DNA of 64,000 nt. Origin: Thiohalophilus sp. (lineage in GTDB: Bacteria > Pseudomonadota > Gammaproteobacteria > UBA6429 > Thiohalophilaceae). The stretch lies in assembly GCF_034522235.1 (NCBI RefSeq), contig NZ_JAXHLN010000002.1, positions 62,001-126,000 of the forward strand, in the 5' to 3' direction. The notes under the pieces were generated by a model. That model ran no database searches. It was given only the letters and a program-made list of their open reading frames with translations, and was not told the origin of the DNA. Shown here one piece after another: positions 5,371-55,185 of the stretch (position 1 is the first letter of the stretch; every line of letters begins with the position of its first letter). Both the position numbers and the translations under genes were made by a program.

Positions 5371-5390
5371 GTATCTCTCCCTTTTGATAG

Positions 5391-6358: not shown

Positions 6359-6370
6359 GTCCAATTTTGA

Positions 6371-6440
6371 GCGCTAACAGTGATTTAGACAGAATCTGTA
6401 TTTTCCCGGATATAGACAGAATCTGCCTATTCCGTTTGAA
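6371..6440 (-). other. candidate attI site with 13-bp direct repeats
   Basis: The junction between the first cassette and the integrase side reads GTTAGCGC on the minus strand (6371-6378), the expected core for insertion. Beside it two perfect copies of TAGACAGAATCTG lie at 6386-6398 and 6413-6425, 27 bases apart. Class 1 attI also carries direct repeats that bind extra integrase, so these are good candidates for accessory sites. I saw no LexA-like operator here. Confidence 0.55.
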
Positions 6441-6517
6441 ATTTCTTGAATTATTTCCCATAATCCTAGCAGGCAATTGGACTGCCTGCATCCAATAACA
6501 GCTAAAGGAGTAGCGCT

Positions 6518-7924
6518 ATGGACAACCCTTCCGTATCCCGGTTCTGGGATAATTATATCGAAAAAACAAAAACTTATAACATCAAGCCGAAGGTGGCGCG
6601 ATGGTACGTGCGCCATGCGGAGCAGTACATCAAGGCGCACCCCAATCAGCGTCTGGGGAGCCACACCCCGCGCGAAGTCGAGGAATATCTGCGGGACAAA
6701 GGCAGAAATGCACCCCTGGAAGACTGGCAGTTTCGCCAGATCGTGGACGCGCTCAAGATTCTATTTGTGGAGATGGTCCAGCCTGCCTGGGCAGGGGACT
6801 TTTCATGGCAGGATTGGTCCATGGCAGCGCAGTCCCTGCGCGACAATCATGCTACTGTCGCCCGGGATTATCAGGCCGATGGTGGGCACGATCCTGAAGC
6901 CCATGCCGCCGGACTGGATGAAAAAGATTCGGTTCTTTACAAGCATGTTTTCAAGCGATATCCCGAACATGTTAAAGCCTTTGTGGCGGCGATACGCACC
7001 AGGCAATATTCGATTCGCACTGAACGATCCTACATTGGCTGGTTTTTGAGATATATCAGGTACCATGATATGACTGATCCGGCGAGATTGTCAGAGCAAC
7101 ACATCGGTCAGTTCCTCGATTATCTGGTTTTGAATCGCAATGTAGCCGCCAGCACCCAGAGTCAAGCATTGAATGCATTGATATTTTTTTACAAGCAGGT
7201 ATTGCAGCGTGAGATGAATGAAAAGATTTCATTTGCACATTCAAAAAAACCGCGACGGCTTCCTGTTGTTCTTACGCGCGATGAGGTCAGGAAGTTGATG
7301 GAGAAAATTGACGGAGAAACGCAACAGTTAATGGCAAATCTCTTGTATGGATGTGGAATGCGACTGATGGAGTGCGTCAGACTGCGGGTTCTGGATGTGG
7401 ATTTCGGCTATCGACAGATACTCGTACGTGAAGCAAAAGGGAAGAAAGACCGGGTTGTACCGATTCCCAACAAATTGATCGATTGCTTGCAGGAGCAGGT
7501 CGACAAGATCAGGGCTTTACATAAAGAAGATCTGGAAAATGGTTTTGGCAGGGTGTATATCCCCGGGGCATTGGCAAGAAAATACCCTAACGCGGAAAAA
7601 GAGTTTCGCTGGCAATATGTTTTTCCCTCATCCAGAGTCTCAACCGACCCGCGAACAGGCGTTGTTCGTCGGCATCATATTCATGAAAACGGGTTGCAAA
7701 AGTATATCAAGCGGGCAGCGGAACAGGCCAGCATCACCAAGAAAGTGAACTGTCATGCCTTGCGCCATTCATTTGCTACCCATTTACTGGAGTCGGGTTA
7801 CGATATTCGTACGGTACAGGAATTACTTGGGCATGCCGATGTCTCGACGACCATGATCTATACACATGTACTGAATATGCCCGGGGTGAGCGTGGTCAGT
7901 CCGCTGGATATGCTGGAACGGTAG
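6518..7924 (+). CDS. intI: integron integrase (IntI family) with long N-terminal extension
   Basis: A 468-residue tyrosine recombinase. Catalytic residues are Arg282 (GCGMRLME), Lys307 (EAKGKK), His413 and Arg416 (HALRHS), His439 (LLGHAD) and Tyr448 (MIYTH). The IntI-specific insertion that sets these enzymes apart from XerCD is present at about 351-371 ([19 protein letters not shown]). The six catalytic positions equal those known for class 1 IntI (146, 171, 277, 280, 303, 312) plus exactly 136, so the core is colinear and about 135 extra residues sit in front. An AAAGGAG lies seven bases before the ATG. The gene is transcribed away from the cassette array, the standard integron arrangement. 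It should insert and excise cassettes at attI and attC. No frameshift is seen, so it is likely active. Confidence 0.93.
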
Positions 7925-12586: not shown

Positions 12587-13552
12587 TTACTCCCGCCGCG
12601 CCTTGCGCCGGAAGATCTGATAGCGATCCCGGTAGGTCTTGTGCCGCAGATATTGCGGTATAACGGCTTCCAGTGCGGCCGGCTCGATCCCGAATACCTC
12701 ACGCAGCACCTTGTCGCTTTCGGGGCAGACGCTGTCCATCTGCAGCGAACGGTAGTTATCGCGGGAGAAAGGCTTGCCGGGCGCGTATTCGAGCAGGTTG
12801 GCCTGCAGGGTGGAACCGATACGGCCCAGCGGAATAATACGGCGGTTGATGTCGAGGGTATCGATGATGCGTTCAACAATCTGCCGCAGGGTATATTCGT
12901 GGGGGCCGCACAGATTGTAACGCTGGCCGTAGGTGGCTGGATCGTTGAGACTTTGGGTGAAGGCGGTGGCCACATCGCCCACATAGACCGGCGCAAAGCG
13001 GGCATCGGGGCAGGCCAGGGGAAACAGCCAGGGTGTTTTTTTCAGTAGCGAGGCGAAGCGGTTGATGAAGCTGTCTTCGGGGCCGAAGATCACCGAAGGA
13101 CGGAATGAGGTAACATTGAGATCGGTGGTGGCATGGACACGGTGTTCAGCTTCGCCCTTGCTGCGCAGATAATAGCTGCTGCCGGTGCCCGGATCGGCGT
13201 TGAGCGCGCTCATGTGCAGCAGCCGCTGTATACCGTGGGCGCGACAGACCTTGATAACCTTATCGCTCAGTTCGACATGGGCACGATAGAAACCCTTGCC
13301 GTTGTCGCGGGTCTCGTTGAGTATACCGACCAGATTGATAACCGCATCCTGATCGGCGAAAAATCGACTCAGGGTCTTTTCATCGTGCACATCGGCATCG
13401 AAGACTTCCACGGTCGGCATCACCAGCAGTTCCCGATGCGCCTCGCGGCGTCGGGTCAGGACCCGTATGCTGTGACCCTCTCTGACCAGATGGTTGATCA
13501 AATGCGTTCCGACAAAGCCGGTCCCGCCGAGGATGCAGATGCGTCGTCTCAT
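12587..13552 (-). CDS. NAD(P)-binding epimerase-like protein (NDUFA9 family)
   Basis: The 321-residue protein is an atypical short-chain dehydrogenase. It begins with RRRICILGGTGFVGTHL, a GxxGxxG nucleotide-binding loop, continues with DAVINLVG and LLHMSALNAD, and has a degenerate catalytic region (YLRSKGEAE, the YxxxK equivalent). This is typical of the NDUFA9-like group, whose members bind NADPH and are linked with quinone biosynthesis or complex I assembly. I use the ATG at 13552, eight bases after AGGTGA, not the upstream start that would add 19 residues. It diverges from the aldehyde dehydrogenase gene. Confidence 0.85.
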   Translation of the reverse strand: MRRRICILGGTGFVGTHLINHLVREGHSIRVLTRRREAHRELLVMPTVEVFDADVHDEKTLSRFFADQDAVINLVGILNETRDNGKGFYRAHVELSDKVIKVCRAHGIQRLLHMSALNADPGTGSSYYLRSKGEAEHRVHATTDLNVTSFRPSVIFGPEDSFINRFASLLKKTPWLFPLACPDARFAPVYVGDVATAFTQSLNDPATYGQRYNLCGPHEYTLRQIVERIIDTLDINRRIIPLGRIGSTLQANLLEYAPGKPFSRDNYRSLQMDSVCPESDKVLREVFGIEPAALEAVIPQYLRHKTYRDRYQIFRRKARRE

Positions 13553-13716
13553 GGATGTTTCACCTTTTTGTCCGGTTGCATTGTCATTATTTGTCCCTAT
13601 TATAGGCATGGCAATGGTTCAAATGCGAGAGCCCGTAAAATCAGAGCCTGGGCGAAAATATGACGTCTATACTTTAATATGTATGAACGACAGACGCGAA
13701 CGATAAAGGAGTCCGC

Positions 13717-15084
13717 ATGAGTTTCGAAGTCATCAACCCGGCAACTGGTGAAAAGGAAGGCGAATTTCCGGCCTGGGAGGACGCCCGGATTGATCAGGCG
13801 CTGGAACAGGCGGCCGAGGTCGCACCGCAATGGCGCGCCCTGACCATTAGCGAGCGCTGTGAACTGATGCGCGGGGTCGCGAAGGTCCTGCGTGACAACA
13901 AGGAGCAATACGCCGCGCTGATTACCCGGGAGATGGGGAAACTGATCAACGAGGCCCGGGGCGAGCTCGAAAAATGTGCCTGGGTTTGTGAATATTATGC
14001 GGATAAGGCCCCAGAGTTCCTGCACGACGAGCCGATCGAGAGCGATGCAGGCAAAAGCTATGTGGCCTATCAGCCGCTGGGCACCGTGCTGGCGGTAATG
14101 CCGTGGAATTTTCCCTTCTGGCAGGTGTTTCGTTTCGCGGCGCCGGCGTTATGCGCCGGTAACACCGGACTGTTGAAGCACGCCTCCAATGTGCCGCAGT
14201 GCGCGCAGGCAATCGAAGCGATATTTCGTGAAGCGGGCTTTCCCGATGGTGTATTCACCACATTGATGATCCGCGCCTCGCAGGTGCAAAAAGTGATCGA
14301 GGATCCCAGGGTGCAGGCCGTTACCCTGACCGGCAGCGAACCGGCCGGACGCCAGGTGGCCGCGGTGGCAGGATCGGTATTGAAAAAGAGCGTGCTGGAG
14401 CTGGGCGGATCCGACGCCTTTGTGGTGCTGGAGGACGCGGATCTGGACGAGGCGGTCAAAAGTGCAGTGGCCTCCCGCTTTCTCAATGCCGGACAGAGTT
14501 GTATCGCGGCCAAGCGCTTTATTGTGGTGGATGCGATTGCCGAGGATTTTGTTGCCCGCTTCAAGGCCGGGGTCGAAAGCCTGCAGCCCGGCGATCCGCT
14601 GGATGAAAACACCAGCCTGGCGCCGATGGCACGCAGCGATTTACGCGAGGAGCTGCACAAGCAGGTGGTCGACAGCCTGGCCGCGGGCGCGGTCAATGTC
14701 ACCGGCTGCGATCTCTATGAGGATATGCCCGGGGCGTATTATAAAGCGTCGATTCTGGACCAGGTCGGTCCCGGCATGCGCGCCTATAGCGAGGAGTTAT
14801 TCGGTCCGGTGGCGATCGTGATCCGGGCGAGGGACGAGGCCGATGCACTGCGGATTGCCAATGACACCACCTTCGGACTGGGGGGGAATGTCTGGACCCG
14901 GGACAGTGATCGGGGCGAGCGACTGGCCCGACAACTGGACTGTGGTTGTGCCTTCGTTAACAGCTTTGTCAAAAGCGATCCGCGTCTGCCCTTTGGCGGG
15001 ATCAAACTCTCCGGTTACGGCCGCGAACTGTCCCATCACGGCATCCACGAATTCGTCAACGCCAAGACCGTGTGGATTAAGTAA
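13717..15084 (+). CDS. NAD(P)-dependent succinate-semialdehyde dehydrogenase family protein
   Basis: The 455-residue protein is an aldehyde dehydrogenase with PWNFPFWQ (about 129-136), the catalytic glutamate in LELGGSDAF (about 228-236), and the nucleophile in NAGQSCIAAKRF (Cys about 262). The sequence SFEVINPATGE and the absence of an N-terminal extension fit the Sad/GabD-like class that oxidises succinate semialdehyde to succinate, feeding the TCA cycle. Specificity cannot be fixed from sequence. AAAGGAG lies six bases before the ATG. The stop codon abuts repeat C directly. Confidence 0.85.
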   Translation: MSFEVINPATGEKEGEFPAWEDARIDQALEQAAEVAPQWRALTISERCELMRGVAKVLRDNKEQYAALITREMGKLINEARGELEKCAWVCEYYADKAPEFLHDEPIESDAGKSYVAYQPLGTVLAVMPWNFPFWQVFRFAAPALCAGNTGLLKHASNVPQCAQAIEAIFREAGFPDGVFTTLMIRASQVQKVIEDPRVQAVTLTGSEPAGRQVAAVAGSVLKKSVLELGGSDAFVVLEDADLDEAVKSAVASRFLNAGQSCIAAKRFIVVDAIAEDFVARFKAGVESLQPGDPLDENTSLAPMARSDLREELHKQVVDSLAAGAVNVTGCDLYEDMPGAYYKASILDQVGPGMRAYSEELFGPVAIVIRARDEADALRIANDTTFGLGGNVWTRDSDRGERLARQLDCGCAFVNSFVKSDPRLPFGGIKLSGYGRELSHHGIHEFVNAKTVWIK

Positions 15085-43310: not shown

Positions 43311-44036
43311 TTAGAGTAGCCAGTCGTCCAGGGTGACATCCTTGGTGGTCTTGTGCCGGATATCCTCTTTCTTGAGCGGATTGTCCACGCGCACCAGCTC
43401 GTCTTCATGGATGTGCATCTTGGTCTTGCGCCGCGGCAGGTAATGGTTGGCCGGCTTGGTGCCCCATTCGGGCATCAGCTGGTAACCGCCCTGTTCGCGA
43501 ATCGCGACCGACACTTCCGAGTCAGGATCGTGGACGTCACCGAACAGCCGGGCGTTGGTCGGGCAGGCCATGACGCAGGCCGGTTTGCGCTCGGCTTCGG
43601 GCAGGGATTCGTCGTAGATACGATCCACGCACAGGGTGCACTTGGTCATCACCTGTTCTTTCTCGTCCAGCTCGCGCGCGCCATAGGGGCAGGCCCAGGA
43701 GCAGTATTTGCAGCCGATGCATTTGTCATAGTCTACCAGCACAATGCCGTCGTTCTCGCGCTTGTAGCTGGCGCCGGTCGGGCAGACCGGCACGCAGGGC
43801 GCGTCCTCGCAATGCAGGCAGCTCTTCGGGAAGTGGATGGTTTCCGTGTTCGGGAAATTGCCCACCTCATAGGTCTGCACCCGGTTGAAGAAGGTCCCGG
43901 TGGGGTCCTTGCCATACGGATTCTCGTCGAACAGCGGGCCGGCGGCACCGGAAGTATTCCACTGCTTGCAGCTGGTGACGCAGGCGTGGCAACCCACGCA
44001 AACATTCAGATCGATAACGAGGGCTAACTGGGACAT
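43311..44036 (-). CDS. soeB: SoeB-like iron-sulfur subunit of sulfite dehydrogenase
   Basis: The 241-residue protein holds four 4Fe-4S motifs in the DmsB/NrfC pattern: CVGCHACVTSC (about 12-22), CLHCEDAPCVPVCP, CIGCKYCSWACP and CTLCVDRI with later CVMACP. It moves electrons from the molybdenum subunit to the membrane anchor. The start overlaps the soeA stop by one base (TAATG), which couples translation. No signal peptide, so the complex faces the cytoplasm. Confidence 0.9.
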   Translation of the reverse strand: MSQLALVIDLNVCVGCHACVTSCKQWNTSGAAGPLFDENPYGKDPTGTFFNRVQTYEVGNFPNTETIHFPKSCLHCEDAPCVPVCPTGASYKRENDGIVLVDYDKCIGCKYCSWACPYGARELDEKEQVMTKCTLCVDRIYDESLPEAERKPACVMACPTNARLFGDVHDPDSEVSVAIREQGGYQLMPEWGTKPANHYLPRRKTKMHIHEDELVRVDNPLKKEDIRHKTTKDVTLDDWLL

Positions 44037-46945
44037 TATTTAGCTCCTTTGCTGAACTTGCCAGCGAAGTACTGCAGCCATTTGCGGCGCGGTGTCGTTC
44101 CCGGCACAGCATGCATCTCTTTGTATTGCGGGGAGGTGACCGGTTCATCGTCTTCGCTCGCCGGATAGATCCGAACCCGCACGTCATACCAGCCGGCCTG
44201 GCCGGTGACCGGATCCGAGTTGGAAATATGCTCGCCGGCAGGGTTGGACGGCAACTCCTCGCTGATTACGTGGTTCAACAGGAAGCCCTGCTGGGATTCG
44301 TTGGCGTTCTTGTCCAGGTTCCAGGCGCCGCTGGCCTTGCCGATGGCGTTCCAGGTCCAGATGGTGCCCGGCTCGACCGCCTCACTGTAACGACTCAGGC
44401 AGCGCACCTTGCCGTGCATGGACTCGATCCACATCCAGGATTCGTCCTCGATACCGGCCGCTTTCGCGGTCTGCGGATGCAGGTGCAGGTAGTTGTAGGC
44501 ATGGATCTGGCGCAGCCAGGCGTTCTGCGAGTCCCAGCTGTGGTACATGGCCATCGGCCGCTGGGTGATCGCGTTGAGCGGGTACTTGTGTTTGTCGGTC
44601 AGCTGCGACTCCAGCGGCTCGTAGTAGAACGGCAGTGGATCGAAGAAAGTCTCGATGCGCTTGCGCAGATGCCTGGGCGGCACCCGACCGCCGGGGTTCT
44701 TGTCCTGCGCGGCCAGGCGGAACTTCTGCAGCACTTCGGAGTAGATGTGGCAGTTGATTGGCTCGGCATAGCGGGTCAGGGCGTTGCCCTGGGCCCACTG
44801 CAGGTAACCCTGGTTCCAGTTACGCATGTACTGGTAGGACTTGGGCAGCTCGTAATGGAACACGCAGTTGTTCTTCTCGTACATCTTCCACTGATCCGGG
44901 TTGGGCTCGCCACGCATGGACTTCTCGCCGCCCTTGCCGCGCCAGCCGGCCAGAAAGCCGATGCCGGAGCCCGGGGCGGTCTCGAAGTTGGTGACAAAGT
45001 CCGGATAGTCGCGGAACTTGCGGTTGCCGTCTTCATCCACGAAGGCCGGCAGCTTCAGCCGCGAGCCCAGTTCAATGAGCACTTCCTGGAACGGCTTGCA
45101 CTCGCCAGTCGGCGGCACCACGGGGATACGCACCGAGTCGACCGGACCGTCGTACTCGGAGATCGGCCGATCCAGCATGGACATCACGTCATGGCGTTCC
45201 AGATAGGTGGTATCCGGCAGCACCAGATCGGCGTAGGCGACGGTTTCCGACTGGAAGGCGTCGGCCACGACCAGAAACGGGATCTTGTACTCACCGTTGT
45301 CGTCCTTGTCGTTGAGCATCTTGCGCACTTCATCGGTGTTCATGGTGGAGTTCCACGCCATATTGGCCATGAACAGGAGCAGGGTGTCGATGTTGTAGGG
45401 ATCGCCGCGGTGGGCGTTGGTGATCACATTGTGCATCAGACCGTGCACCGACAGCGGATGCTCCCAGGAGAAGGCCTTGTCGATCCGCACCGGCTCGCCC
45501 TGGTCGTCGACGAACAGATCGTCGGGGTCCGCCGGCCAGCCCAGCGGCATGCCGTTGAGCGGGGTATTCGGCTGTACGTCGTCCGGCGAGGTCGGGTTCT
45601 TCGGGCAGGGCGGAATCGGGCGCGGGAAGGGCGCCTTGTGGCGGAAGCCGCCGGGCCGGTCGATGGTGCCCAGAATCGACATCAGGATGCTCATGGCGCG
45701 GATGGTCTGGAAGCCGTTGGAATGGGCGGCCAGACCGCGCATGGCATGGAAGGCCACCGGGTTGCCGGTGACCGACTCGTGTTCGTTGTCCCACACGTCG
45801 GTCCAGGCGATCGGCAGCTCGATCTTCTCGTCGCGGGCGGTGATACCCATTTCATAGGCCAGGCGACGGATGGTCTCGGCCGGAATGCCGGTGATGTTCT
45901 CGGCCCATTCGGGGGTGTACTGCTGCACCCGTTCGGTCAGCATCTGGAAGGCCGGTTTGACCGGGGTGCCGTCGGGCAAGGTGAAATTACCCAGCAGATA
46001 CGGATCGGCACCCGGGGTATGGGTGGAAATCGGTTTGTTCAGATCCCGATCCCACCACAGCTTGTTCTGGGGATCGAAGCAGCCTTCCTCTTCGGGGACT
46101 TCGAAACGCACGAACATGCCGTATTCGGTGCTCTCTTCGTCCAGGTTCACCAGCTCGGCGGAGTTGGTGTAGTTGACCAGAAAATCCCGGTCGAACAGCC
46201 CCTGCTTGATAATCTCATGGGTCAGGGCCAGCAGCAGCGCGCCGTCGGTGCCGGGTTTGATCGGCACCCATTCGTCGGCAATGGCGGAGTAGCCGGTGCG
46301 CACCGGGTTGATGGAGATAAAGCGGCCGCCGTTGCGCTTGAACCTGGACAGTTCCATCTTCAGCGGGTTGGAGTGATGGTCCTCGGCGGTGCCGATCATC
46401 ACGAACAGTTTGGCGCGTTCCAGATCCGGGCCCCCGAATTCCCAGAACGAGCCGCCGATGGTGTAGATCATGCCCGCAGCCATGTTGACCGAGCAGAAGC
46501 CGCCATGGGCCGCGTAGTTGGGCGTGCCGTACTGTTTGGCGAACAACCCGGTCAGCGCCTGCATCTGATCGCGGCCGGTGAACAGCGCGAATTTCTTCGG
46601 ATCGGTGGCGCGGATGTTGCCCAGGCGCTCCTCGAGCAGGTCGAAAACCTGATCCCAGCTGATCTCCTCGAACTGCGCATCACCGCGGTCGGCGCCGGGC
46701 TTGCGCATCAGCGGCCTGGTCAGCCGCGCCGGGGAGTACTGTTTCATAATCCCCGAGGAACCCTTGGCACAGATGATGCCCTTGTTCAGCGGATGATCGG
46801 GATTGCCCTGGATATAGCGCACCTCCCCGTCACGCACGGTCACGCGGATGCCGCAGCGGCAGGCACACATGTAACAGGTGGTGTTCTTGGTTTCAGTGCG
46901 CCCCGCGGGCTTCTGAATCGGGTCGTGTATTACTGCCATCGTCAA
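44036..46945 (-). CDS. soeA: SoeA-like molybdopterin subunit, cytoplasmic sulfite dehydrogenase
   Basis: The 969-residue protein is a DMSO reductase-family molybdoenzyme. Its N-terminal 4Fe-4S site has Cys24, 27, 31 and 59 (CYMCACRC, then IICAKG). The molybdopterin domain follows and a molydop-binding domain closes the chain (about 800-940). There is no twin-arginine signal, as in SoeA, which acts in the cytoplasm and oxidises sulfite to sulfate with quinone as acceptor. Related tetrathionate, thiosulfate or polysulfide enzymes are exported, so the lack of a signal favours SoeA. The gene is GC-rich and has an open antisense frame that I judge to be a shadow. Confidence 0.85.
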   Translation of the reverse strand: MTMAVIHDPIQKPAGRTETKNTTCYMCACRCGIRVTVRDGEVRYIQGNPDHPLNKGIICAKGSSGIMKQYSPARLTRPLMRKPGADRGDAQFEEISWDQVFDLLEERLGNIRATDPKKFALFTGRDQMQALTGLFAKQYGTPNYAAHGGFCSVNMAAGMIYTIGGSFWEFGGPDLERAKLFVMIGTAEDHHSNPLKMELSRFKRNGGRFISINPVRTGYSAIADEWVPIKPGTDGALLLALTHEIIKQGLFDRDFLVNYTNSAELVNLDEESTEYGMFVRFEVPEEEGCFDPQNKLWWDRDLNKPISTHTPGADPYLLGNFTLPDGTPVKPAFQMLTERVQQYTPEWAENITGIPAETIRRLAYEMGITARDEKIELPIAWTDVWDNEHESVTGNPVAFHAMRGLAAHSNGFQTIRAMSILMSILGTIDRPGGFRHKAPFPRPIPPCPKNPTSPDDVQPNTPLNGMPLGWPADPDDLFVDDQGEPVRIDKAFSWEHPLSVHGLMHNVITNAHRGDPYNIDTLLLFMANMAWNSTMNTDEVRKMLNDKDDNGEYKIPFLVVADAFQSETVAYADLVLPDTTYLERHDVMSMLDRPISEYDGPVDSVRIPVVPPTGECKPFQEVLIELGSRLKLPAFVDEDGNRKFRDYPDFVTNFETAPGSGIGFLAGWRGKGGEKSMRGEPNPDQWKMYEKNNCVFHYELPKSYQYMRNWNQGYLQWAQGNALTRYAEPINCHIYSEVLQKFRLAAQDKNPGGRVPPRHLRKRIETFFDPLPFYYEPLESQLTDKHKYPLNAITQRPMAMYHSWDSQNAWLRQIHAYNYLHLHPQTAKAAGIEDESWMWIESMHGKVRCLSRYSEAVEPGTIWTWNAIGKASGAWNLDKNANESQQGFLLNHVISEELPSNPAGEHISNSDPVTGQAGWYDVRVRIYPASEDDEPVTSPQYKEMHAVPGTTPRRKWLQYFAGKFSKGAK

Positions 46946-47259
46946 CCTGGCCTTTTTAATGGGGTGCGCGATTATAGGTAGCTCGTCGCACAGTGACTAA
47001 TCAGCGTTATTAAAAGGTTATAGAATCATTATATACTAAAATGATTATATGATAACCGTATCCAGACGGAGATAGTGACCGGGCCCGCTCCCTATCCGAA
47101 GAGAGATAGCCATAGCCCGACTAAACATCTGTTTTTACGGGAGTTTTGAGCTTGCAGGTGAGGTCGGCCAAACTATAGCCGATCACGAGCAAATTTAAAC
47201 CCCGTGCACCTCGAAGGACAGAAATAAAATTCACTTATATTTAGATCAGGTATAAGTCC

Positions 47260-47283
47260 CGCCGAAACGGTCCCGTTTCGGCG
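47260..47283. terminator. hairpin in the soeA upstream gap
   Basis: A 10-bp stem (CGCCGAAACG and its complement) with a GTCC loop is followed by CCATTTTCATT. It may end leftover transcription or form a leader structure. From 46946 to 47259 I see only AT-rich promoter-like sequence (TATATACTAAAATGATTATA near 47031-47050) before soeA and no gene. Confidence 0.5.
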
Positions 47284-47387
47284 CCATTTTCATTCCGCCC
47301 AATCGGATACAACAAATCCAGTTTAAGCCGTCCCGGCGGGACAGGATCGTCATCACCCGGCCAAGCGCCCGTCACATACCATTAATA

Positions 47388-47500
47388 TAAGGAGTGCCCG
47401 GGGCGAATCTGTCGCGACTTCCCGCAACGGTGCGGTCAGAATCCTCTCAAGCCGGGATCGTGCTGAAGAGAGGCCGGCTTTGCTGAGGGGACAGCACAAG
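47388..47500 (+). ncRNA. cobalamin-riboswitch-like leader RNA
   Basis: Key pieces of the B12-riboswitch consensus appear in order: GGGCGAATC (47401-47409, compare GGTGCGAATCC), CCCGCAACGGT (47421-47431, compare CCCGCAACTGT) and AAGCCGGGATCG (47449-47460, compare AAGCCAGGAGACC). Spacing between the last two is short, as in compact variants without the long P7-P9 arm. No B12-related gene follows; the next gene on this strand is the small Fn3-like membrane protein at 47715. It may be degenerate or serve another ligand. Confidence 0.42.
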
Positions 47501-47714
47501 TCCATGGTGTGACTGAGTCATCGAGGTTGTGTGGTCCGGGACGGGTTGCCCTGGCTGGTAATAAGTGACTCTTTTAACTAGACTTTTGGGGCAATGTGAA
47601 TTTTATTGCCACTCATGGCAAAATAGATAACAAATTTCGTTGCACATTCAAGGCAGCTGTCATTGTCCGGACATCCCCAGGGCCATGTTGCAATGAAGAT
47701 AATGGACTAATTCA

Positions 47715-48242
47715 TTGAATTCTTCTGAGTCAACAAGCCGTACAGCCCGTCGGGCCAGGCTTCTATCATCGTCTGATGGTGGTTCCGTTCGCAAGTCCCT
47801 GCGCGAACGGTTGACTGTTCTCATTTTTATTCCGTTGTTTTTCGCCACCTCGATCTGCAGCGCCGTGGAGCTGGAGTCGGATACCGACGTGGCGACGGCC
47901 GGCTATTACCAGCTGAAGTGGCAGAATGCCGATAAAAATGTCCGCTTTGAGATCGAAGAAGCCGATAACCTTGCGTTTGACGATGCCCGCCGGCTTTATC
48001 AGGGCCGGGATCGTGCGACGGTTATCACCGGCCGCCCGGACGGGATTTATTATTACCGGGCCAGAATCGCCGCTGTGGACGGGCCAACGGGCAGCTGGTC
48101 TGATACCGTGAAGGTAGAGGTCGATCATCATCCCCTGTCACGCGCCCTGGGGTTTTTCAGCATCGGCGCGATTGTGTTCATTGCGATTCTGGTGGCCATT
48201 CTGATCGGCAACCGCCGCTATCATATCAAGGAGTCTGTGTGA
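47715..48242 (+). CDS. secreted or membrane Fn3-like protein heading the carbamoyl operon
   Basis: The product has a hydrophobic signal segment (LTVLIFIPLFFATSICSA), a beta-sandwich domain of about 80 residues that looks fibronectin III-like (YYQLKWQNADKNVRFEIEEA, then GIYYYRARI and GSWSDTVKVEV), and a C-terminal membrane helix (about 148-168) with a short basic tail. No ATG is available. A TTG at 47715 opens the frame; a TTG at 47811 would start right at the signal peptide and is more natural. The 3' end overlaps the M20 gene by four bases, tying it to the operon. Function unknown; a surface-exposed accessory to the symporter is possible. Confidence 0.6.
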   Translation: MNSSESTSRTARRARLLSSSDGGSVRKSLRERLTVLIFIPLFFATSICSAVELESDTDVATAGYYQLKWQNADKNVRFEIEEADNLAFDDARRLYQGRDRATVITGRPDGIYYYRARIAAVDGPTGSWSDTVKVEVDHHPLSRALGFFSIGAIVFIAILVAILIGNRRYHIKESV

Positions 48243-49483
48243 CCTTATCGATTAATACCGCCCGCCTGCAGCAGGATATTGAAACGCTCTCGGCCATCGG
48301 TCGTCGGGAGGATCATGGCCTGTACCGTATGGCCTTTACCGAAGGCGATATGGAAGGCCGTGCCTGGTTCAAGGAGCAGCTTGAGGCGGCGGGACTGGCG
48401 GTCTATGAGGATGGTGCGGCCAACATTCATGGCCGGCTGAACTGGGATGATGAGACCCCGGCTGTGGTGACCGGCTCGCACCTGGATACCGTTCCCAGCG
48501 CCGGGCATCTGGATGGCGCGCTCGGCGTGCTGGTGGGACTGGAGTGCCTGCGCTGTATCAAGGAGCAGAATCTGCCGCTGCGCTACCCGCTGGAAGTGAT
48601 CTCCTTTACGGATGAAGAGGGCCGCTTCGGCGGCATGGTCGGTTCCCAGGCGATCGCCGGTCGGTTGACCCCCGAATCGATCCATCAGGCCGTCGATCTC
48701 GATGGCGTGACATTGGCCGAGGCGATGCAACAAAACGGCTATGATGCCATGCATGCATTACACGCCCGTTATCGGCCGGAAGCGATTCATGCCTTTCTGG
48801 AACTGCATATCGAACAGGGACCGATTCTGGATCAAATGGGCCTGAGCGTCGGTGTCGTCGATGCCATCGCGGGCCTGTTCAAGTGGGAAGTGAGTCTGAT
48901 CGGTACGGCCAACCATGCCGGCACCACGCCCATGCACATGCGTAACGATGCGTTTCAGGGGCTGGCGGAATTTTCCAACGAGATTCAGCGCATCCTGGAA
49001 GAGAACGGCTCGGCACGCAGTGTCGCCACCATCGGCCGGGTGGATACCAGGCCGGGTGCTCCCAACGTGGTGCCGGGACGGGTAGATTTTTCATTGGAGG
49101 CGCGTGATACCGACGAGCATACGTTGGAGGATCTGCAACACGCGTTTCGCAAAGCCTTGTCCGCCATCGCCCGGCGCCGCAATCTGATGTTCGAGTTCAA
49201 GATTCTGAGCGAACTCGCGCCGGTCAAATGCGATCTGGGTCTGGTCAATGATCTGGAAGAGGTGGCCAAACAGTTGAAACAGGAACCATTGGTGATGGCC
49301 AGTGGTGCCGCTCATGATACCCAGATGATGGCCCGCATCGCCCGTGCCGCGATGGTGTTTGTGCCGAGCAAGGGCGGACGCAGTCACTCGTCGGCCGAAT
49401 GGACCGAGCTGGTGGATATCGAGCGCGGTGCCAATGTGATGCTCAATGCCCTGTATAAATTAGCCGGAGAACAGCAGGTATGA
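48239..49483 (+). CDS. M20-family N-carbamoyl-L-amino-acid hydrolase
   Basis: The 414-residue protein is a di-zinc amidase of the hydantoinase/carbamoylase (AtzF-independent, M20) group. Metal ligands are His81 (GSHLDTVP), Asp92 (HLDGALGV), Glu127 (FTDEEGRFGG), His190 (ELHIEQGP) and a late His in GRSHSSAEW; the lid domain has GTANHAGTTPMHMR. The group includes N-carbamoyl-L-amino-acid hydrolase, beta-ureidopropionase and allantoate amidohydrolase. It releases CO2 and ammonia from a ureido group. Start is a GTG after AAGGAG, overlapping the upstream stop by four bases; it overlaps the next gene by four bases as well. In this setting a carbamoyl amino acid is the likely substrate. Confidence 0.88.
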   Translation: MTLSINTARLQQDIETLSAIGRREDHGLYRMAFTEGDMEGRAWFKEQLEAAGLAVYEDGAANIHGRLNWDDETPAVVTGSHLDTVPSAGHLDGALGVLVGLECLRCIKEQNLPLRYPLEVISFTDEEGRFGGMVGSQAIAGRLTPESIHQAVDLDGVTLAEAMQQNGYDAMHALHARYRPEAIHAFLELHIEQGPILDQMGLSVGVVDAIAGLFKWEVSLIGTANHAGTTPMHMRNDAFQGLAEFSNEIQRILEENGSARSVATIGRVDTRPGAPNVVPGRVDFSLEARDTDEHTLEDLQHAFRKALSAIARRRNLMFEFKILSELAPVKCDLGLVNDLEEVAKQLKQEPLVMASGAAHDTQMMARIARAAMVFVPSKGGRSHSSAEWTELVDIERGANVMLNALYKLAGEQQV

Positions 49484-50232
49484 CCGACGAGACATATGAT
49501 CTCAGTGAAGATCTGGATCTGAATCCGGAGTTTCTGGAGGTCGACCCGCTTGAGGAAAAATACCGCAAATCGATCACCCCGGTACAGGCGATCCAGCAGT
49601 CGCTGGAGGAGCACCATACCGCCCTGCTGGTGATCGATCTGCAATATCTGGATGCCGCACGGGGTTACGGCGTATTCGCCAACGTGGATCGGGAACAGAT
49701 GCCGCACGAGGCCGAAGAGTTTTATTTCGATTCGCTGGAAAACACGGTGCTGCCCAATGTGCGGCGTCTGCAGGACAGCTTTCGAGCCAACAAACTGGAA
49801 GTGATCCATATTCGTATCCAGTCCCTGACCCGGGATGGCCGCGATCGTAGTCCCGGCCACAAGCGTCTCGGTCTGCATGCGGCTCCCGACTCAAAGGAAG
49901 CGGAGTTCCTGCCCGAAGTGGCGCCGGTTGGCGACGAGATCGTGATTAACAAGAGCGCCAGCGGTGTATTCAATGTCACCAATCTGGAATATGTACTGCG
50001 CAACATGGGCGTCACCGGCCTGTTTGTCTGCGGTGTCTATACCAACGAGTGTGTTTCCACCACCATCCGCGATGCCAGTGATCTCGGGTTCTATACCACA
50101 TTGATCGCGGATGGCTGCACCACGGTGACCCCCGAGTTGCATACGGCGACGATTCGTACGGTCAAGGATCGCTACTCACGGGTCATGACCACCGATGAAG
50201 CCATCAAGGAGATCAACAAGGTCGTGGCATGA
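49480..50232 (+). CDS. isochorismatase-family cysteine amidohydrolase
   Basis: The 250-residue protein has the Asp-Lys-Cys triad of the family: Asp53 (LLVIDLQ), Lys158 (VINKSASGVF) and Cys191 (YTNECVSTT), and a cis-peptide VCGVYTNE before the cysteine. An acidic N-terminal extension of about 40 residues precedes the fold. Family members include nicotinamidase, N-carbamoylsarcosine amidase and ureidoacrylate amidohydrolase, all of which cleave amide or carbamoyl C-N bonds. Here it may remove a primary amide or a carbamoyl group. Overlaps of four bases join it to both neighbours. Confidence 0.88.
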   Translation: MTDETYDLSEDLDLNPEFLEVDPLEEKYRKSITPVQAIQQSLEEHHTALLVIDLQYLDAARGYGVFANVDREQMPHEAEEFYFDSLENTVLPNVRRLQDSFRANKLEVIHIRIQSLTRDGRDRSPGHKRLGLHAAPDSKEAEFLPEVAPVGDEIVINKSASGVFNVTNLEYVLRNMGVTGLFVCGVYTNECVSTTIRDASDLGFYTTLIADGCTTVTPELHTATIRTVKDRYSRVMTTDEAIKEINKVVA

Positions 50233-51671
50233 ATAGCGTCAACTCCGCGATACTCGACCCCAATGTCGGCTGGCTGATCCTCGCGATCTTCAGCGTCATC
50301 TGGGTCTGGCTGGGCTGGTTCTGGGGCCGCAAGGCCAAGGCGCTGGACGACTACATGCTGGCCGGCCGTCGGGTGGGGATCGCGCTGGGTACCGCCACGG
50401 CCATGGCCACCTGGGTCACCAGCAACACCACCATGGTGGCGCCGCAACTGGCTTTCCAACTGGGCATTTGGGGCATGCTCGGTTATTCGCTGGGTTCGGT
50501 GGGACTGATGCTGTTCGCTCCGCTGGCCCGGCGTATTCGCCAGCTGCTGCCTTTCGGTTATACCAGCGGTGACTTTATTCGCCTGCGCTACGGGATCTGG
50601 ACCTGGCGGGTCTTTCTGGTGATCTCGCTTTGCTACGCCATCGGCTGGCTGATCAGCCTGGGCATGGCCGGCGGGGTGCTAATCCATGCCCTGACCGGGA
50701 TCGATTACCAGCTCGGGATGACGGTCATCCTGACTATTTGCGTGTTGTACACCCTGCTGGGCGGCTTGCGCGCGGTCATCGGTACCGACTTTATCCAGAC
50801 CCTGTTAATCATCGGCGGCGTGGTGGCGCTGGCCATCCTGACCATTAACAAGATCGGCTTTGATGCCATGCATGAAAGCCTGCTGGCCGAGCGACCGGAA
50901 CTGCTCAATCTGCTGATGCCGGCCGCGGTCATGTTTTTGTTCAACAATCTTTTATTCGGCGTCGGCGAGATATTCCATTCCAATGTCTGGTGGTCTCGCG
51001 CCTTCGCCTTTCGCAAGGACGTCGGCTTTCGCGCCTACCTGCTGGCGGGAATCATCTGGGTGCCGATCCCGATCGTCGCCGGGTTTGTGGCTCTGGCCGC
51101 GCCGGCGTTGGGTCTAAATGTGCCCGCTGCGGACATGGTGGGGCCGATGGTTGCCGCGGAGCTGCTTGGCTTTGGCGGCGCGGTGCTGGTGTTTATTATT
51201 GTTTTCTCGGCACTGGCTTCCAGCCTCGATTCCCTGTTGGCGGCGACCGGCGATCTGGTTTTGCAGGATATCTATCGGGGGCATCTCAACCCACAGGCCA
51301 GTGATGAAAAACTGCGAATCATGGCCAAGCGTATCGTGATCATGCTGGGTATTATTACCTGGTTGATCTGTCTGCCGCGTATCACCACCCTGGCCAGTCT
51401 GTTGCATTATCTGGGGGCATTTGTGGCCAGCACCATCTGGCCGGTCGTGGCTGGACTATACTGGAGACGGACCACCGCCAGTGGTGCCCTGCTGGCGATG
51501 GTACTGGGGATTACCACCGGCCTGCTGGCCTATCACTTCATTGGCTTTTATGTGGCGGCGCTGGTGTCCGCCGTGGTTTCCATGTCGGTGGTATTGATCA
51601 ACACCGCCCTGTCGCAAAGCCGGTTCGACTGGGAACAGTTGCGCCAGAGTGAGGAGGGCAGCCCGTCATGA
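50229..51671 (+). CDS. sodium:solute symporter (SSS family)
   Basis: The 480-residue protein has about 13 membrane helices with the SSS pattern (AKALDDYMLAGRRVG, TWVTSNTTMVAPQLAFQLG, FALASSLDSLLAATGDLV-like motif ALASSLDSLLAATGDLVL with the sodium-site serines). SSS proteins import sugars, amino acids, proline or osmolytes with sodium. Its place within the carbamoyl/amidase genes suggests uptake of a ureido or amide compound. The stop overlaps the ATG of a 40-codon membrane ORF (ATGA). Confidence 0.9.
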   Translation: MNSVNSAILDPNVGWLILAIFSVIWVWLGWFWGRKAKALDDYMLAGRRVGIALGTATAMATWVTSNTTMVAPQLAFQLGIWGMLGYSLGSVGLMLFAPLARRIRQLLPFGYTSGDFIRLRYGIWTWRVFLVISLCYAIGWLISLGMAGGVLIHALTGIDYQLGMTVILTICVLYTLLGGLRAVIGTDFIQTLLIIGGVVALAILTINKIGFDAMHESLLAERPELLNLLMPAAVMFLFNNLLFGVGEIFHSNVWWSRAFAFRKDVGFRAYLLAGIIWVPIPIVAGFVALAAPALGLNVPAADMVGPMVAAELLGFGGAVLVFIIVFSALASSLDSLLAATGDLVLQDIYRGHLNPQASDEKLRIMAKRIVIMLGIITWLICLPRITTLASLLHYLGAFVASTIWPVVAGLYWRRTTASGALLAMVLGITTGLLAYHFIGFYVAALVSAVVSMSVVLINTALSQSRFDWEQLRQSEEGSPS

Positions 51672-51790
51672 CAGCAAGTGTGACGTTTCTCGCAGTGGTG
51701 GTGACCGCCGCCGTGGCCATGTCCGCGGTGACACCGCTGATACTGATTTATTTATGGATAAGAGACTGGATAAAAGAGCAGTTATGGTAG
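51668..51790 (+). CDS. 40-residue membrane peptide, likely symporter companion
   Basis: The frame starts with ATG at 51668, sharing ATGA with the symporter stop, and ends with TAG at 51788-51790, seven bases inside the carbamoyltransferase coding region. It encodes 40 residues with one hydrophobic helix (FLAVVVTAAVAMSAVTPLIL) and a charged end IRDWIKEQLW. The coupling at both ends argues that it is translated. Small one- or two-helix partners are known for some SSS transporters (for example YhdT with PanF and YjcH with ActP), so a subunit role is inferred. Confidence 0.65.
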   Translation: MTASVTFLAVVVTAAVAMSAVTPLILIYLWIRDWIKEQLW

Positions 51791-52833
51791 ATAAAACACA
51801 TCCCAAACTTGATGAACGTATCGAGCCTGCCAACTGGACGGACGGGCTGGATATGCCGATGTCGCTGATGGATCAGATCCCGGAGGACCCGGCCGCCCTG
51901 GCCGATCTGGCCAATCGCTCGGTGGTCTCCGGCAAACAGTTCACCCGCGGGCAGGCGATCCAGCTGTGTCGGCTGGCGGCCAAGTTCGAGACCACCCAGA
52001 CCATGGGCCAGTTTCCGCTCACGGGCAAAATCCTGATCAGTGCGTTTTATGAGCCGAGTACCCGGACCCGGCTCTCCTTCGAAAGCGTCTGGCATCGCCT
52101 CGGCGGCGACGTGATCTCCATCACCGATCCGTCGACCACCGGCGTGGCCAAGGGCGAGTCATTGCACGATGTGGCCGAGATGATGAGCCATTACGGCGAT
52201 GTGGTGGTCCTGCGTGATTCCAACGAGGAAGCCATCTACGAGATGCTGGACGTATTGCGCATCCCGATCATCAATGCCGGTAACGGCACCGATGAGCATC
52301 CGACCCAGGCGCTGGCGGATATCTACGCGATTGCCAAGTGGCGGCCGGAATTCCTGATGGATAATCCGCCGGCGGACAAGAAGATTCGCGTCTGTGTAAT
52401 CGGCGTACCGGGTCGCATGCGCACCGTGCGCAGTCTGTTGTCTTTTCTGGCGCTGTTCAGCCCGGCGATCAAGGAAGTGGTTATCATCTGCAATGCCGAT
52501 CAGCCCTTCTCCAGCGGGCAGAAGGAGGAACTGGAGGAAGCCGGGCTCAAGTTGCGCGTGACCGCCGATCTTGACGCCCAGCTACCGGATACGGATGTGG
52601 TGTATATCAATGCTATCGCCTGGGTCGGTGACAGCTATGAAGAGCTGGGTACCGAATACCGGCTGGACAGTCACTCACCGTTAAAAGAAGGATCGATCAT
52701 CCTGCACCCGCTGGCGCGCGGCGAAGAGCTGGCAACCGATCTGGATAACACAGAACACAACTGGTACTTCGCCCAGGCACGTGGCGCCGTCTATGTGCGT
52801 ATGGCCATTATGAACAGCCTGGTGAGATTCTAG
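51784..52833 (+). CDS. ATCase-family carbamoyltransferase with altered acceptor site
   Basis: The 349-residue protein keeps the carbamoyl-phosphate site of aspartate carbamoyltransferase: STRTR (92-96), Lys123 (AKGES), Arg144 (VVLRD), HPTQ (172-175), Arg213 (RMRTVRSL) and HPLAR (308-312). The C-terminus (WYFAQARGAVYVRMAIMN) is ATCase-like. The loop that should read TRVQKER and bind aspartate is replaced by NAIAWVGDSYEELG (276-289), so aspartate is unlikely to be the acceptor. I use the ATG at 51784; an ATG at 51754 would add ten residues. It begins inside the small membrane ORF. It may carbamoylate the amino group of another amino acid, such as glutamine. A PyrB role is less likely. Confidence 0.85.
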   Translation: MVDKTHPKLDERIEPANWTDGLDMPMSLMDQIPEDPAALADLANRSVVSGKQFTRGQAIQLCRLAAKFETTQTMGQFPLTGKILISAFYEPSTRTRLSFESVWHRLGGDVISITDPSTTGVAKGESLHDVAEMMSHYGDVVVLRDSNEEAIYEMLDVLRIPIINAGNGTDEHPTQALADIYAIAKWRPEFLMDNPPADKKIRVCVIGVPGRMRTVRSLLSFLALFSPAIKEVVIICNADQPFSSGQKEELEEAGLKLRVTADLDAQLPDTDVVYINAIAWVGDSYEELGTEYRLDSHSPLKEGSIILHPLARGEELATDLDNTEHNWYFAQARGAVYVRMAIMNSLVRF

Positions 52834-52917
52834 GTGCCAGGTGCCAGGTGCCAGGTGCCAGGTGCCAGGTGCCAGGTGCCAGGTGCCAGGTGCCAGGTGC
52901 CAGGTGCCAGGTGCCAG
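52833..52917. repeat. 12-copy 7-bp tandem repeat (GGTGCCA)
   Basis: Twelve uninterrupted GGTGCCA units begin at the last base of the carbamoyltransferase TAG stop codon. Each unit pairs partly with itself (GGTGCC/GGCACC share ends), so slippage and hairpins are likely. Copy number is probably variable between strains. Confidence 0.95.
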
Positions 52918-53145
52918 AGGCGTAGGTCAGGTTCCGCGCAGCGCTACCTGACGTTTTCCGTATCGGCGGGGTTGTCACGCAGGCTAACGCCAGCGTGACC
53001 TACATGACTAGTAAGGTTCTAGATTCTAGGTGCGAGGGTGTAAGGCAGCGAGTGCGAGAAATTGTAAGAGTGAGAGGTTGTGAGGAGTAAGATCACAAGC
53101 ACACTCTGACGACTGACGATTCAGGACTTAAGACTCACGATTTAA
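52918..53145. repeat. further word-like repeats before asnB
   Basis: This stretch continues the intergenic repeat landscape. It holds GTAGGTCAGGTTCCGCGCAG and a facing CGCTACCTGAC arm (about 52923-52952), a hairpin GTCACGCAGG/CCAGCGTGAC near 52974-53000, a CTAG word, and a purine-rich run (GTGCGAGAAATTGTAAGAGTG) facing a CTGACGACTGACGATTCAGG run. No gene is seen. The asnB promoter must lie within it or transcription reads through from the carbamoyltransferase. Confidence 0.65.
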
Positions 53146-53166
53146 CAGAGGTTAACTAAATAGATT

Positions 53167-55185
53167 ATGTGTGGCATAGCCGGAATATTTCACGCCAATC
53201 CCGAACAGAAAATCGATCCGCAGTTGCTGGTCAATATGGCGGCAATTCAGCACCATCGCGGCCCGGACGGATTCGGTTACAAGACACTGGACACGCAGGG
53301 GGTGGGATTCTCCCATGCGCGCCTGTCAATTATCGACCTCAACGAAGAGCGTGCCCGCCAGCCTTTTTTGTCACAGGACAATAACCTGTTGCTGGCGCAT
53401 AACGGCGAGTTTTACGACTACAAACGGATTCGCGCCGAACTGACCCTCAAAGGTGCGCGCTTCAAGGCCAAGAGCGACTCGGAGATGGTGTTGCATCTCT
53501 ATCCGCGTCTGGGGCTGGAAGACATGCTGCCGCACCTGCGCGGCGAGTTTGCCTTTGCCCTGTATGACAAACAGCACGATCGGCTGATGCTGGTACGCGA
53601 TCGTTTCGGGGTCAAGCCGCTCTACTGGAGCGATACCGGTGACAAGATCGTGTTTGGCTCCGAGCTCAAGGTGCTGTTTGCCCATCCCGATGTCCCGCGC
53701 CGTTTCAATGCCAAGGGGGTATTTCATCAGTTGATGCAGACCACCGTGCCGGGGCATACCGCGTTCGATAATATCAACCAGGTCAAACCCGGCCATGTGG
53801 TCATCATCGAACGCAAGCACGGCAAGTTCCAGGTGACCGACCAGAAATACTGGGACATGGATTTTCCGTTGCAGAGCGAACGCGAGAAAAACGATCGCGA
53901 TGATGAAGAGTATTACATCGAAGGCGTGCGCAAGCATCTGTTGCATGCACTTCAACTGCGCCTGGAAGCCGACGTGCCGGTCGCCTGCTACCTGTCGGGC
54001 GGGATCGACTCCTGTTCCACACTGGGGATGGCGGCGGCCAGTCAGCAATCACCGGTCAAGGCCTTCACCATCGGTTTTGATGATGCCGATTATGACGAAA
54101 CCCCGATTGCCACCGAGATGGCCGAGTCGGTCGGGGCCGATCAGGATGTGATGCTGCTTAACGCCGGTCATCTGTACGAGAACTTCGAGGAAACGCTCTG
54201 GCATACCGAGCGCACGATTTATAACACCCTGGGCGTGGCCAAGCTGCTGATGAGCCGACACGTCAACAAAGCCGGTTATAAAGTGGTCGTCACCGGCGAA
54301 GGTTCCGACGAACTGTTCGGCGGTTATCCGGCCTTTCGCCGCGACATGTTCCTGCACGGCATGGATACCCTGTCGCCGGCGGAGCGGGCCGAATGGGAGA
54401 GCATCCTGGCCGAGGCCAACAAGCTGTTCAAAGGCGCGATGCTGGCCGAGGATGAGGTCAGCGACCCGGCACTGAATGATCTGGTCGGCTTTACGCCCAG
54501 CTGCCTGCAACCCTGGCTGGCCTCGGCGGTGCATGTGCCCGGCTTGCTGTCTTCAGAGCTGCGCGAGGAGGTCGAAGGTTATGCGCCCGGTCAGGCCATC
54601 GCCGAGGCGCTGGACGGTGACATGCTGGAAGGACGCCACCCGCTCGACAAGGCCCAGTACGTCTGGATCAAGACCATGCTGGAAGGCCAGATCCTCACCT
54701 GGGGCGGCGACCGGGTCGACATGGCCAACTCTATGGAGTCCCGGCCGCCGTTTCTGGATCATCACCTGGCCGAGTATTGCGCCCAGTTGCCGCCCTCCAT
54801 GCGCATCAAGGGGCGCACCGAGAAATACGTGTTGCGTGAGGCGATGAAGGGCATTTTGCCCACGACGTTGTACGAACGGGAGAAGTTCGCCTTCATGGCG
54901 CCCCCCGCGCATACCGATCCGGAAAAATGGGCCGCTCTCAAGGTCCTCTCCGACAACTACCTTTCCGATGAGGCGATCGAGCAGGCCGGGATTCTGGATA
55001 AAGCCGGGGTCAAGGCGTTGTTCGATCTGCACGAGTCCGAGGACACTACCGCCTCGACGCAGGTGAAGCTCGATGCGGTGATCAACCATATGGTCGGCGT
55101 ACAGATCCTGCACAAGCATTTCGTTGCCACAGACGTGCCCGCGCTGGCCCGGCAAAAGGCGGACGAGTACGGCTGGCATATGTGA
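53167..55185 (+). CDS. asnB: glutamine-dependent asparagine-synthetase-family amidotransferase
   Basis: The 672-residue protein starts with the Cys2 nucleophile (MCGIAGIF) of a class II glutaminase, followed by RGPDGFG and LAHNGEFYD. The synthetase domain has the PP-loop SGGIDS (277-282), GEGSDELFGGYP, and SRPPFLDHHLAEY. It activates a carboxylate with ATP and transfers ammonia from glutamine to form an amide. Asparagine synthesis is the default call. The family also makes other amides, for example in N-acetylglutaminylglutamine amide synthesis. Its place after the altered carbamoyltransferase suggests amidation of a carbamoylated amino acid. Confidence 0.88.
   Translation: MCGIAGIFHANPEQKIDPQLLVNMAAIQHHRGPDGFGYKTLDTQGVGFSHARLSIIDLNEERARQPFLSQDNNLLLAHNGEFYDYKRIRAELTLKGARFKAKSDSEMVLHLYPRLGLEDMLPHLRGEFAFALYDKQHDRLMLVRDRFGVKPLYWSDTGDKIVFGSELKVLFAHPDVPRRFNAKGVFHQLMQTTVPGHTAFDNINQVKPGHVVIIERKHGKFQVTDQKYWDMDFPLQSEREKNDRDDEEYYIEGVRKHLLHALQLRLEADVPVACYLSGGIDSCSTLGMAAASQQSPVKAFTIGFDDADYDETPIATEMAESVGADQDVMLLNAGHLYENFEETLWHTERTIYNTLGVAKLLMSRHVNKAGYKVVVTGEGSDELFGGYPAFRRDMFLHGMDTLSPAERAEWESILAEANKLFKGAMLAEDEVSDPALNDLVGFTPSCLQPWLASAVHVPGLLSSELREEVEGYAPGQAIAEALDGDMLEGRHPLDKAQYVWIKTMLEGQILTWGGDRVDMANSMESRPPFLDHHLAEYCAQLPPSMRIKGRTEKYVLREAMKGILPTTLYEREKFAFMAPPAHTDPEKWAALKVLSDNYLSDEAIEQAGILDKAGVKALFDLHESEDTTASTQVKLDAVINHMVGVQILHKHFVATDVPALARQKADEYGWHM

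Follow-up and report, generated by a model that had tools for sequence, protein, structure and literature searches.

A carbamoyltransferase-amidotransferase gene cluster of Thiohalophilus that probably serves synthesis, import and recycling of N-carbamoylglutamine amide

Background

What does a third carbamoyltransferase do in a genome that already encodes PyrB and ArgF, and why is it encoded together with an amidotransferase, two hydrolases and a sodium symporter? The question is raised by seven plus-strand genes at positions 47715-55185 of a 64,000-nucleotide window (the whole stretch of DNA that was analysed), which is part of contig C2 of a 3.06-Mb Thiohalophilus genome. In order, they encode an FN3-like membrane protein, an M20-family hydrolase (M20), an isochorismatase-fold cysteine hydrolase (ICH), a symporter of the sodium:solute symporter (SSS) family, a small membrane peptide (SMP), a carbamoyltransferase (CT) and an AsnB-type glutamine-dependent amidotransferase (AsnB; Table 1). 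A preliminary description had linked them to N-carbamoylglutamine amide (CGA), and the present analysis supports that idea. As far as sequence allows, we looked for what would speak against it, namely a producer lacking the CT-AsnB pair, a CT of the aspartate type, or a genome with no other pyrB, and found none of these. We consider it likely that the cluster makes, imports and recycles CGA, with CT as a glutamine carbamoyltransferase and AsnB as an N-carbamoylglutamine amidotransferase.

CGA is a compatible solute that protects against salt; the only known producer is the purple bacterium Ectothiorhodospira marismortui (PMC1224877, PMC3857566). A genome survey of phototroph osmolytes names CGA and, in the sections seen, gives no genes for it (PMC7824335). 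No genes assigned to CGA were found in the literature searched, in agreement with what the preliminary description had stated.

Results and discussion

The gene pair in a known producer and in other genomes

The genome of E. marismortui DSM 4180T is deposited as FOUO00000000 (PMC8877833), and its piece NZ_FOUO01000006.1 (L042; record name E. mobilis strain DSM 4180) was among the loci we retrieved. It carries a MarR frame (7239-7907), M20, ICH, CT and AsnB in one direction, so the gene pair is present in the producer, where the test rests on this one type strain. The locus is flanked by a minus-strand sucrose synthase gene (4897-7281; TIGR02470 1182 bits, cut-off 810) and, on the other side, by a minus-strand PfkB kinase gene (13256-14170) whose top model is a fructokinase, with a score far under that model's cut-off. 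The only PF02729 proteins of this genome are ArgF, PyrB and CT.

In order to see how far the pair extends, we scanned named genomes, which returned 306 relatives of CT; the best 80 of these, 56-97% identical, were fetched, and the locus counts below rest on them. The nearest named genome is that of Thiohalophilus thiocyanatoxydans, with a CT 97% identical. Sources of CT among proteobacteria are Thiohalophilus, Ectothiorhodospira, Thiorhodospira, Thioalkalivibrio, Thiohalobacter, Thiogranum, Thiodiazotropha, Aliidiomarina, Pseudidiomarina, Idiomarina and Kangiella; spirochaete metagenome-assembled genomes (MAGs) and unplaced MAGs add to these. CT orthologues were counted at E <= 1e-60 in two sets, both including our own genome: 11 were found to have one among 185 gammaproteobacterial genomes, and 12 among the 40 genomes of the order. 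Of the 68 loci with at least 2.5 kb of sequence downstream, 67 have an AsnB-type gene in the same orientation as CT and no more than 6.5 kb away; this pairing exceeds chance. The exception is Thiorhodospira sibirica, whose unlinked AsnB is 75% identical to that of the window and falls within the clade of CT-linked AsnB.

The carbamoyltransferase

The best family model for CT is the aspartate carbamoyltransferase (ATCase) model TIGR00670, with 185 bits, under the cut-off of 237; the ornithine carbamoyltransferase (OTCase) model TIGR00658 gave 96.7 bits (cut-off 280.9), and both domains of the fold were recognised (Table 1). The AlphaFold model of CT (pLDDT 88.3) has ATCases as its best structural matches, with Z up to 37.8. 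The enzymes these models describe are encoded elsewhere in the genome. As the preliminary description would have it, there is another pyrB (L002; TIGR00670 303 bits), which by eye stands beside pyrR-like and pyrC-like frames, and also an argF (L001; TIGR00658 393 bits, cut-off 281) beside an argD-like frame, again by eye. Three PF02729 genes were found in each of 12 genomes, with two adjoining Thiohalobacter pieces taken as one.

We then compared active sites in an alignment of 56 CT, 12 PyrB and 8 ArgF sequences. The CT set consists of the window protein and those from 55 of the 80 loci; the rest were omitted as near-copies or fragments, and L038 for a stop inside its translation. The carbamoyl-phosphate site (S92-R96 of STRTR, K123 of KGE, R144 equivalent to Arg105, and H172 of HPxQ) is kept in all 56 CT, and Q175 of the HPxQ motif in 55. 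R213 is likewise kept in 56/56; it corresponds to E. coli Arg167, which we take to bind the alpha-carboxylate in ATCase. Arg229 and Gln231 (E. coli numbering), which we presume to be the aspartate-sensing residues of ATCase, are present in 12/12 PyrB and in none of the CT: the Arg229 position holds Ala (41), Ser (10), Thr (4) or Lys (1), and the Gln231 position Ala (52), Val (2), Leu (1) or Ser (1). The Pro268 position is Ala in every CT. Further alignments agree with this table. Because both sensing residues are missing in 56/56 CT, aspartate is an unlikely substrate, and the preliminary description's concern that CT might use it is to that extent answered.

In a tree built with 24 of the 56 aligned CT, all 24 cluster together (94/94; recovered in 92% of 200 bootstrap trees) next to PyrB, with ArgF set apart (100/100). 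By sequence, CT is a branch of its own beside aspartate carbamoyltransferase within the ATCase/OTCase superfamily.

Sequence does not fix the acceptor, and the most distant of the fetched CT is only 56% identical, so CT could use another amino acid or an amine, either outside Ectothiorhodospira or everywhere, and yield a different ureido-amide, a related unknown solute. We regard this as unlikely, in that the acceptor region is uniform: N276, I278, W280, N326 and W327 are kept in all 56 CT, from proteobacteria to spirochaetes.

The amidotransferase

AsnB scored 426 bits with TIGR01536 (cut-off 267), a broad model that amidotransferases for N-acetylglutaminylglutamine amide (NAGGN) also pass, and 291 bits with the NAGGN amidotransferase model TIGR03104, under the cut-off of 570. 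Residues C2 (the nucleophile), R52, N79, G80, D104, S277 and D281 are kept in 71/71 loci. The CT-linked AsnB form a clade (support 99/98) separate from the NAGGN type; an E. coli AsnB fragment in this tree fills 18% of the alignment columns, and its position carries no meaning.

Is this enzyme needed for asparagine? Genomes with GatB and no asparaginyl-tRNA synthetase (AsnS) can make asparagine on its tRNA. This was the pattern in eight of ten genomes checked, including our own and that of E. marismortui, with GatB present and no AsnS above the cut-off, so asparagine can be made on tRNA there. Kangiella aquimarina and Aliidiomarina soli, the remaining two, show the reverse, AsnS without GatB, yet they encode AsnA, which was found in 5/5 Kangiella and Idiomarinaceae genomes searched. 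Judging from these gene contents, asparagine can be obtained in the genomes checked with no help from the cluster AsnB, which would be free for another amidation. Our own genome has just one further strong AsnB-type protein, a TIGR03104 protein of NAGGN type (L162:6239-8092; 924 bits, cut-off 570).

These results bear on the plainest reading of the pair, in which CT is a second aspartate carbamoyltransferase, AsnB an ordinary asparagine synthetase, and the two are neighbours by history. The best models are indeed TIGR00670 for CT and, above its cut-off, TIGR01536 for AsnB, and because of these best scores the two genes are easily mistaken for pyrB and asnB. However, CT misses the TIGR00670 cut-off and both aspartate-sensing residues in a genome with its own pyrB, asparagine is otherwise supplied in the genomes checked, and the two genes are paired almost throughout. 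We consider this explanation extremely improbable, the least probable of those weighed here.

Breakdown and transport units

M20 passed the hydantoinase/carbamoylase model TIGR01879 (388.5 bits, cut-off 204); its second-ranked model is ErtE, an N-carbamyl-L-glutamate amidohydrolase (390 bits, under the cut-off of 520). The nearest solved structure is 3n5f, an N-carbamoyl-L-amino acid hydrolase (E 1.9e-79). Ten of the 11 catalytic residues checked are kept in 61/61 loci, and N276 in 60/61. Arg289, which we take to be the residue of M20 carbamoylases that binds the substrate carboxylate, is kept in 61/61. D53, K158 and C191 of ICH are likewise kept in 61/61 loci. The best curated model for ICH is BiuH (76 bits, cut-off 370), and among solved structures ICH comes closest to cysteine hydrolases, one of them biuret hydrolase. 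From these relationships M20 probably decarbamoylates N-carbamoylglutamine and ICH probably removes the 1-amide. The roles could be swapped, since N-carbamoylsarcosine amidohydrolase shares the ICH fold.

The SSS protein has the urea symporter DUR3 as its nearest solved structure (E 3.9e-31) and is the probable uptake system for the solute. The nearest relatives of the symporter, of M20 (carbamoylase) and of ICH (biuret hydrolase) all fit a ureido-amide, and none proves it. The FN3-like protein matched no Pfam family; a homologue was found in 51/51 full-flank loci with the symporter and in 0/9 without it. The 40-aa SMP was found by tblastn (E <= 1e-3) in 53 of the 80 loci, every one also with the symporter, which was itself found in 69/80. 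The FN3-like protein is thus a probable partner, and the peptide a probable small subunit, of the symporter; the tracking of FN3-like with SSS, together with the peptide, suggests a three-part SSS transporter.

How these genes are combined was tabulated for the 60 loci with full flanks, the other 20 of the 80 being excluded. FN3-like, M20, ICH, SSS and AsnB were all present in 43 loci. Eight (seven Ectothiorhodospira and one Tenderia MAG) had M20, ICH and AsnB without FN3-like and SSS, and seven (Kangiella, Idiomarinaceae) had FN3-like, SSS and AsnB without M20 and ICH. One locus (L063) lacked ICH as its sole missing gene, and the Thiorhodospira locus had CT alone. Presence or absence of FN3-like and SSS agreed in 60/60 loci and that of M20 and ICH in 59/60; related genomes are not independent, and p-values for these modules should therefore not be read literally. 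Opposite-strand M20 homologues of Kangiella (L085, L089, L090; 44-46% identical) were excluded from the counts of cluster genes. The cluster is a core (CT-AsnB) with a breakdown unit (M20 and ICH) and a transport unit (FN3-like and SSS), the pattern expected if a single solute is synthesised, broken down and imported.

Two Leptospiraceae MAGs and a further bacterial MAG (L076, L087, L094) have the order FN3-like-SSS-CT-M20-ICH-AsnB, and their CT group together in the tree (97/96). Shared order and grouped CT hint at transfer of the whole gene set.

The composition of the loci also bears on a ureide or pyrimidine salvage pathway, which the preliminary description had offered as its alternative, and on a catabolic route with CT running in reverse to give carbamoyl phosphate and ATP. 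M20, isochorismatase-fold and SSS families do occur in such pathways, and a full-length carbamate-kinase relative was found in our own genome, Thiohalophilus and two Thioalkalivibrio (292-329 bits, under the cut-off of 358). However, an AsnB that uses ATP and glutamine nearly always accompanies CT, and M20 and the amidase are missing from 8/60 full-flank loci. Moreover, carbamate-kinase matches do not exceed 36 bits in the seven genomes of Ectothiorhodospira and Thiorhodospira searched, so a reversed CT for energy is unlikely there. The alternative is weakened by these findings, and we consider it very unlikely.

The proposed pathway and the points against it

The pathway that we favour would run as follows. 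CT would carbamoylate L-glutamine at its alpha-amino group, with carbamoyl phosphate as the donor, giving N-carbamoylglutamine. AsnB would then activate the 1-carboxylate with ATP and amidate it with ammonia from a second glutamine, giving CGA, whose net charge is zero. Import of the solute would fall to the Na+ symporter together with the FN3-like protein and the 40-aa peptide. When salt falls, the ICH amidase would strip the 1-amide and the M20 carbamoylase would then release glutamine, CO2 and ammonia; removal of the 1-amide by ICH would free the carboxylate group to which M20 carbamoylases bind. We infer all substrates in this scheme, as well as the order of the steps, the pairing of hydrolases with bonds, the direction of transport and the control by salt.

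The same solute could be reached by another order or from another acceptor, with AsnB acting first to give glutaminamide for CT, or with CT carbamoylating glutamate before amidation. Sequence does not fix the order, and M20 resembles ErtE, which acts on N-carbamyl-L-glutamate. However, the Arg167 equivalent kept in 56/56 CT speaks for an acceptor whose carboxylate is free, and glutamate would require two amidations. We hold these variants to be improbable, about on a par with the different ureido-amide; because the alpha-carboxylate arginine is kept, CT acting before AsnB is the favoured order.

Several points weigh against the pathway with CGA as its product. Glutamine as the acceptor is taken from the known solute of one producer, and other lineages might use another acceptor. 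Even in E. marismortui, CGA is called a minor solute in PMC3857566, glycine betaine being the one seen by Raman. That genome encodes four other strong AsnB-type proteins, none adjoining CT, so another enzyme could amidate there; one of the four is of the TIGR03104 NAGGN type (L163:8807-10579; 985 bits). No MarR gene was found in the window with a MarR profile built from these loci. EctC showed no association with CT, being present in 1/11 genomes with CT and 23/174 without, and a link to ectoine was rejected on these counts. The Thioalkalivibrio literature, in the parts accessible, names glycine betaine and sucrose as solutes and not CGA. None of the cluster genes appears in Table 2 of PMC9062515 on T. 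versutus D301, which is that table only and not the full list of 184 genes; T. versutus AL 2 has the cluster (L072), and its presence in D301 was not checked.

If the proposal is true, CGA is predicted in Thioalkalivibrio, Thiohalophilus, Kangiella, Idiomarinaceae, lucinid symbionts and some spirochaetes, and a new acceptor is added to a textbook enzyme superfamily. It would also offer a possible answer for the osmotic protection of Thiorhodospira sibirica, which is said to lack annotated osmotic stress genes and for which CGA has already been named as one candidate (PMC7824335). The joint claim is broader: that CT is a new ATCase/OTCase branch and CT-AsnB the CGA synthase pair, and that CGA is a widespread, recyclable and importable solute with a dedicated three-part transporter, ranging over marine and haloalkaliphilic proteobacteria and some spirochaetes. 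Taken as a whole, we would give it an even chance of being right.

Osmotic context

Neighbouring genes with a link to osmotic stress speak for the proposal, among them the sucrose synthase gene beside the E. marismortui locus. In 40/80 loci the fetched flanks include a MarR gene, according to a profile made from MarR sequences of the same loci whose weakest match was 210.9 bits; in all seven Ectothiorhodospira loci it stands directly before M20. The BCCT family was found in 8/80 loci and a family that includes an SDMT-like protein (381 bits against a cut-off of 550) in 6/80, counts that have no randomised control and are inflated by related genomes. Across genomes, BCCT genes (E < 1e-100) were present in 7/11 with CT and 28/174 without (one-sided p = 9e-4, uncorrected for kinship). 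Leaving out the second genome of the genus gives p = 0.003, and so does including seven genomes with matches at E > 1e-100. At high salt, nitrogen genes including glnA are up in T. versutus D301 (Table 2 of PMC9062515); no salt-expression data for the cluster genes were found in the accessible literature that we searched.

Gene layout and surroundings

The families in Table 1 were confirmed with NCBIfam and Pfam models on the window proteins. The first six genes (47715-52833) are chained by overlaps of 4, 4, 4, 4 and 7 bases, and AsnB starts 333 bases 3' of the CT end. The preliminary description was right that short overlaps, which it gave as four to eight bases, connect M20 to CT with AsnB downstream, but it left the first frame (47715-48242) unnamed, and AsnB is outside the chain.

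Table 1 Genes of the cluster. Positions are those of the window; aa, amino acids; TM, transmembrane.
Gene product	Position	Strand	Length	Basis
FN3-like membrane protein	47715..48242	+	175 aa	signal sequence, FN3-like stretch and C-terminal TM helix by eye
M20 N-carbamoyl-L-amino-acid hydrolase	48239..49483	+	414 aa	TIGR01879
Isochorismatase-fold cysteine hydrolase (ICH)	49480..50232	+	250 aa	PF00857, 114 bits
Sodium:solute symporter (SSS family)	50229..51671	+	480 aa	PF00474, 105.6 bits
Small membrane peptide (SMP)	51668..51790	+	40 aa	tblastn conservation with symporter
Carbamoyltransferase (CT)	51784 (ATG)..52833	+	349 aa	OTCace_N/OTCace
AsnB-type glutamine-dependent amidotransferase	53167..55185	+	672 aa	TIGR01536

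The gap between CT and AsnB holds a perfect tandem repeat of AGGTGCC (12.3 copies, 52832-52917). On the 5' side of the cluster is a long non-coding stretch (46982-47714), in which a 10-pair stem-loop is followed by T-rich DNA at 47260-47283. Rfam gave no match at gathering scores in the window, and a single chance-level match upstream of the cluster. Promoter-like sites numbered 8 versus 4.7 +/- 2.1 in shuffles, and terminator-like sites 9 versus 7.4 +/- 2.4. Further upstream, two open frames of more than 950 codons each overlap on opposite strands (44111-46981, plus; 44036-46945, minus). The plus-strand frame has no family match in NCBIfam or Pfam and probably lies antisense to a genuine gene.

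Comparison with known systems

Compared with PyrB (TIGR00670), CT shares the fold and the carbamoyl-phosphate residues; it differs in the absent aspartate sensors, the separate clade, about 40 extra N-terminal residues and the missed TIGR00670 cut-off. M20 has the fold and catalytic residues of the N-carbamoyl-L-amino-acid hydrolases (TIGR01879; ErtE). Unlike ErtE, whose model cut-off it does not reach, it sits among synthesis genes.

The closest parallel is the NAGGN operon (asnO-ngg-M42 peptidase), which in P. aeruginosa has the divergent MarR protein PA3458 as its repressor (PMC8070244), and of which the Azospirillum operon (L159) is our example. Next to the NAGGN-type amidotransferases of our own genome and E. 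marismortui, no match to Ngg was found in the adjoining frames scanned; on one side of the E. marismortui gene the adjoining frame is a Cas4g/Cas1g fusion. The NAGGN operon and the present cluster share an AsnB-type enzyme, which in our proposal would amidate an N-capped glutamine compound at its terminal carboxylate to give a neutral amide osmolyte, and both have an operon hydrolase gene and, in some genomes, an adjoining MarR gene. They differ in the cap, which here would be a carbamoyl group added by an ATCase-like transferase, whereas in NAGGN it is acetylglutaminyl, added by Ngg. They differ also in the hydrolases, M20 and ICH here and an M42 peptidase there, and their AsnB proteins fall in separate clades.

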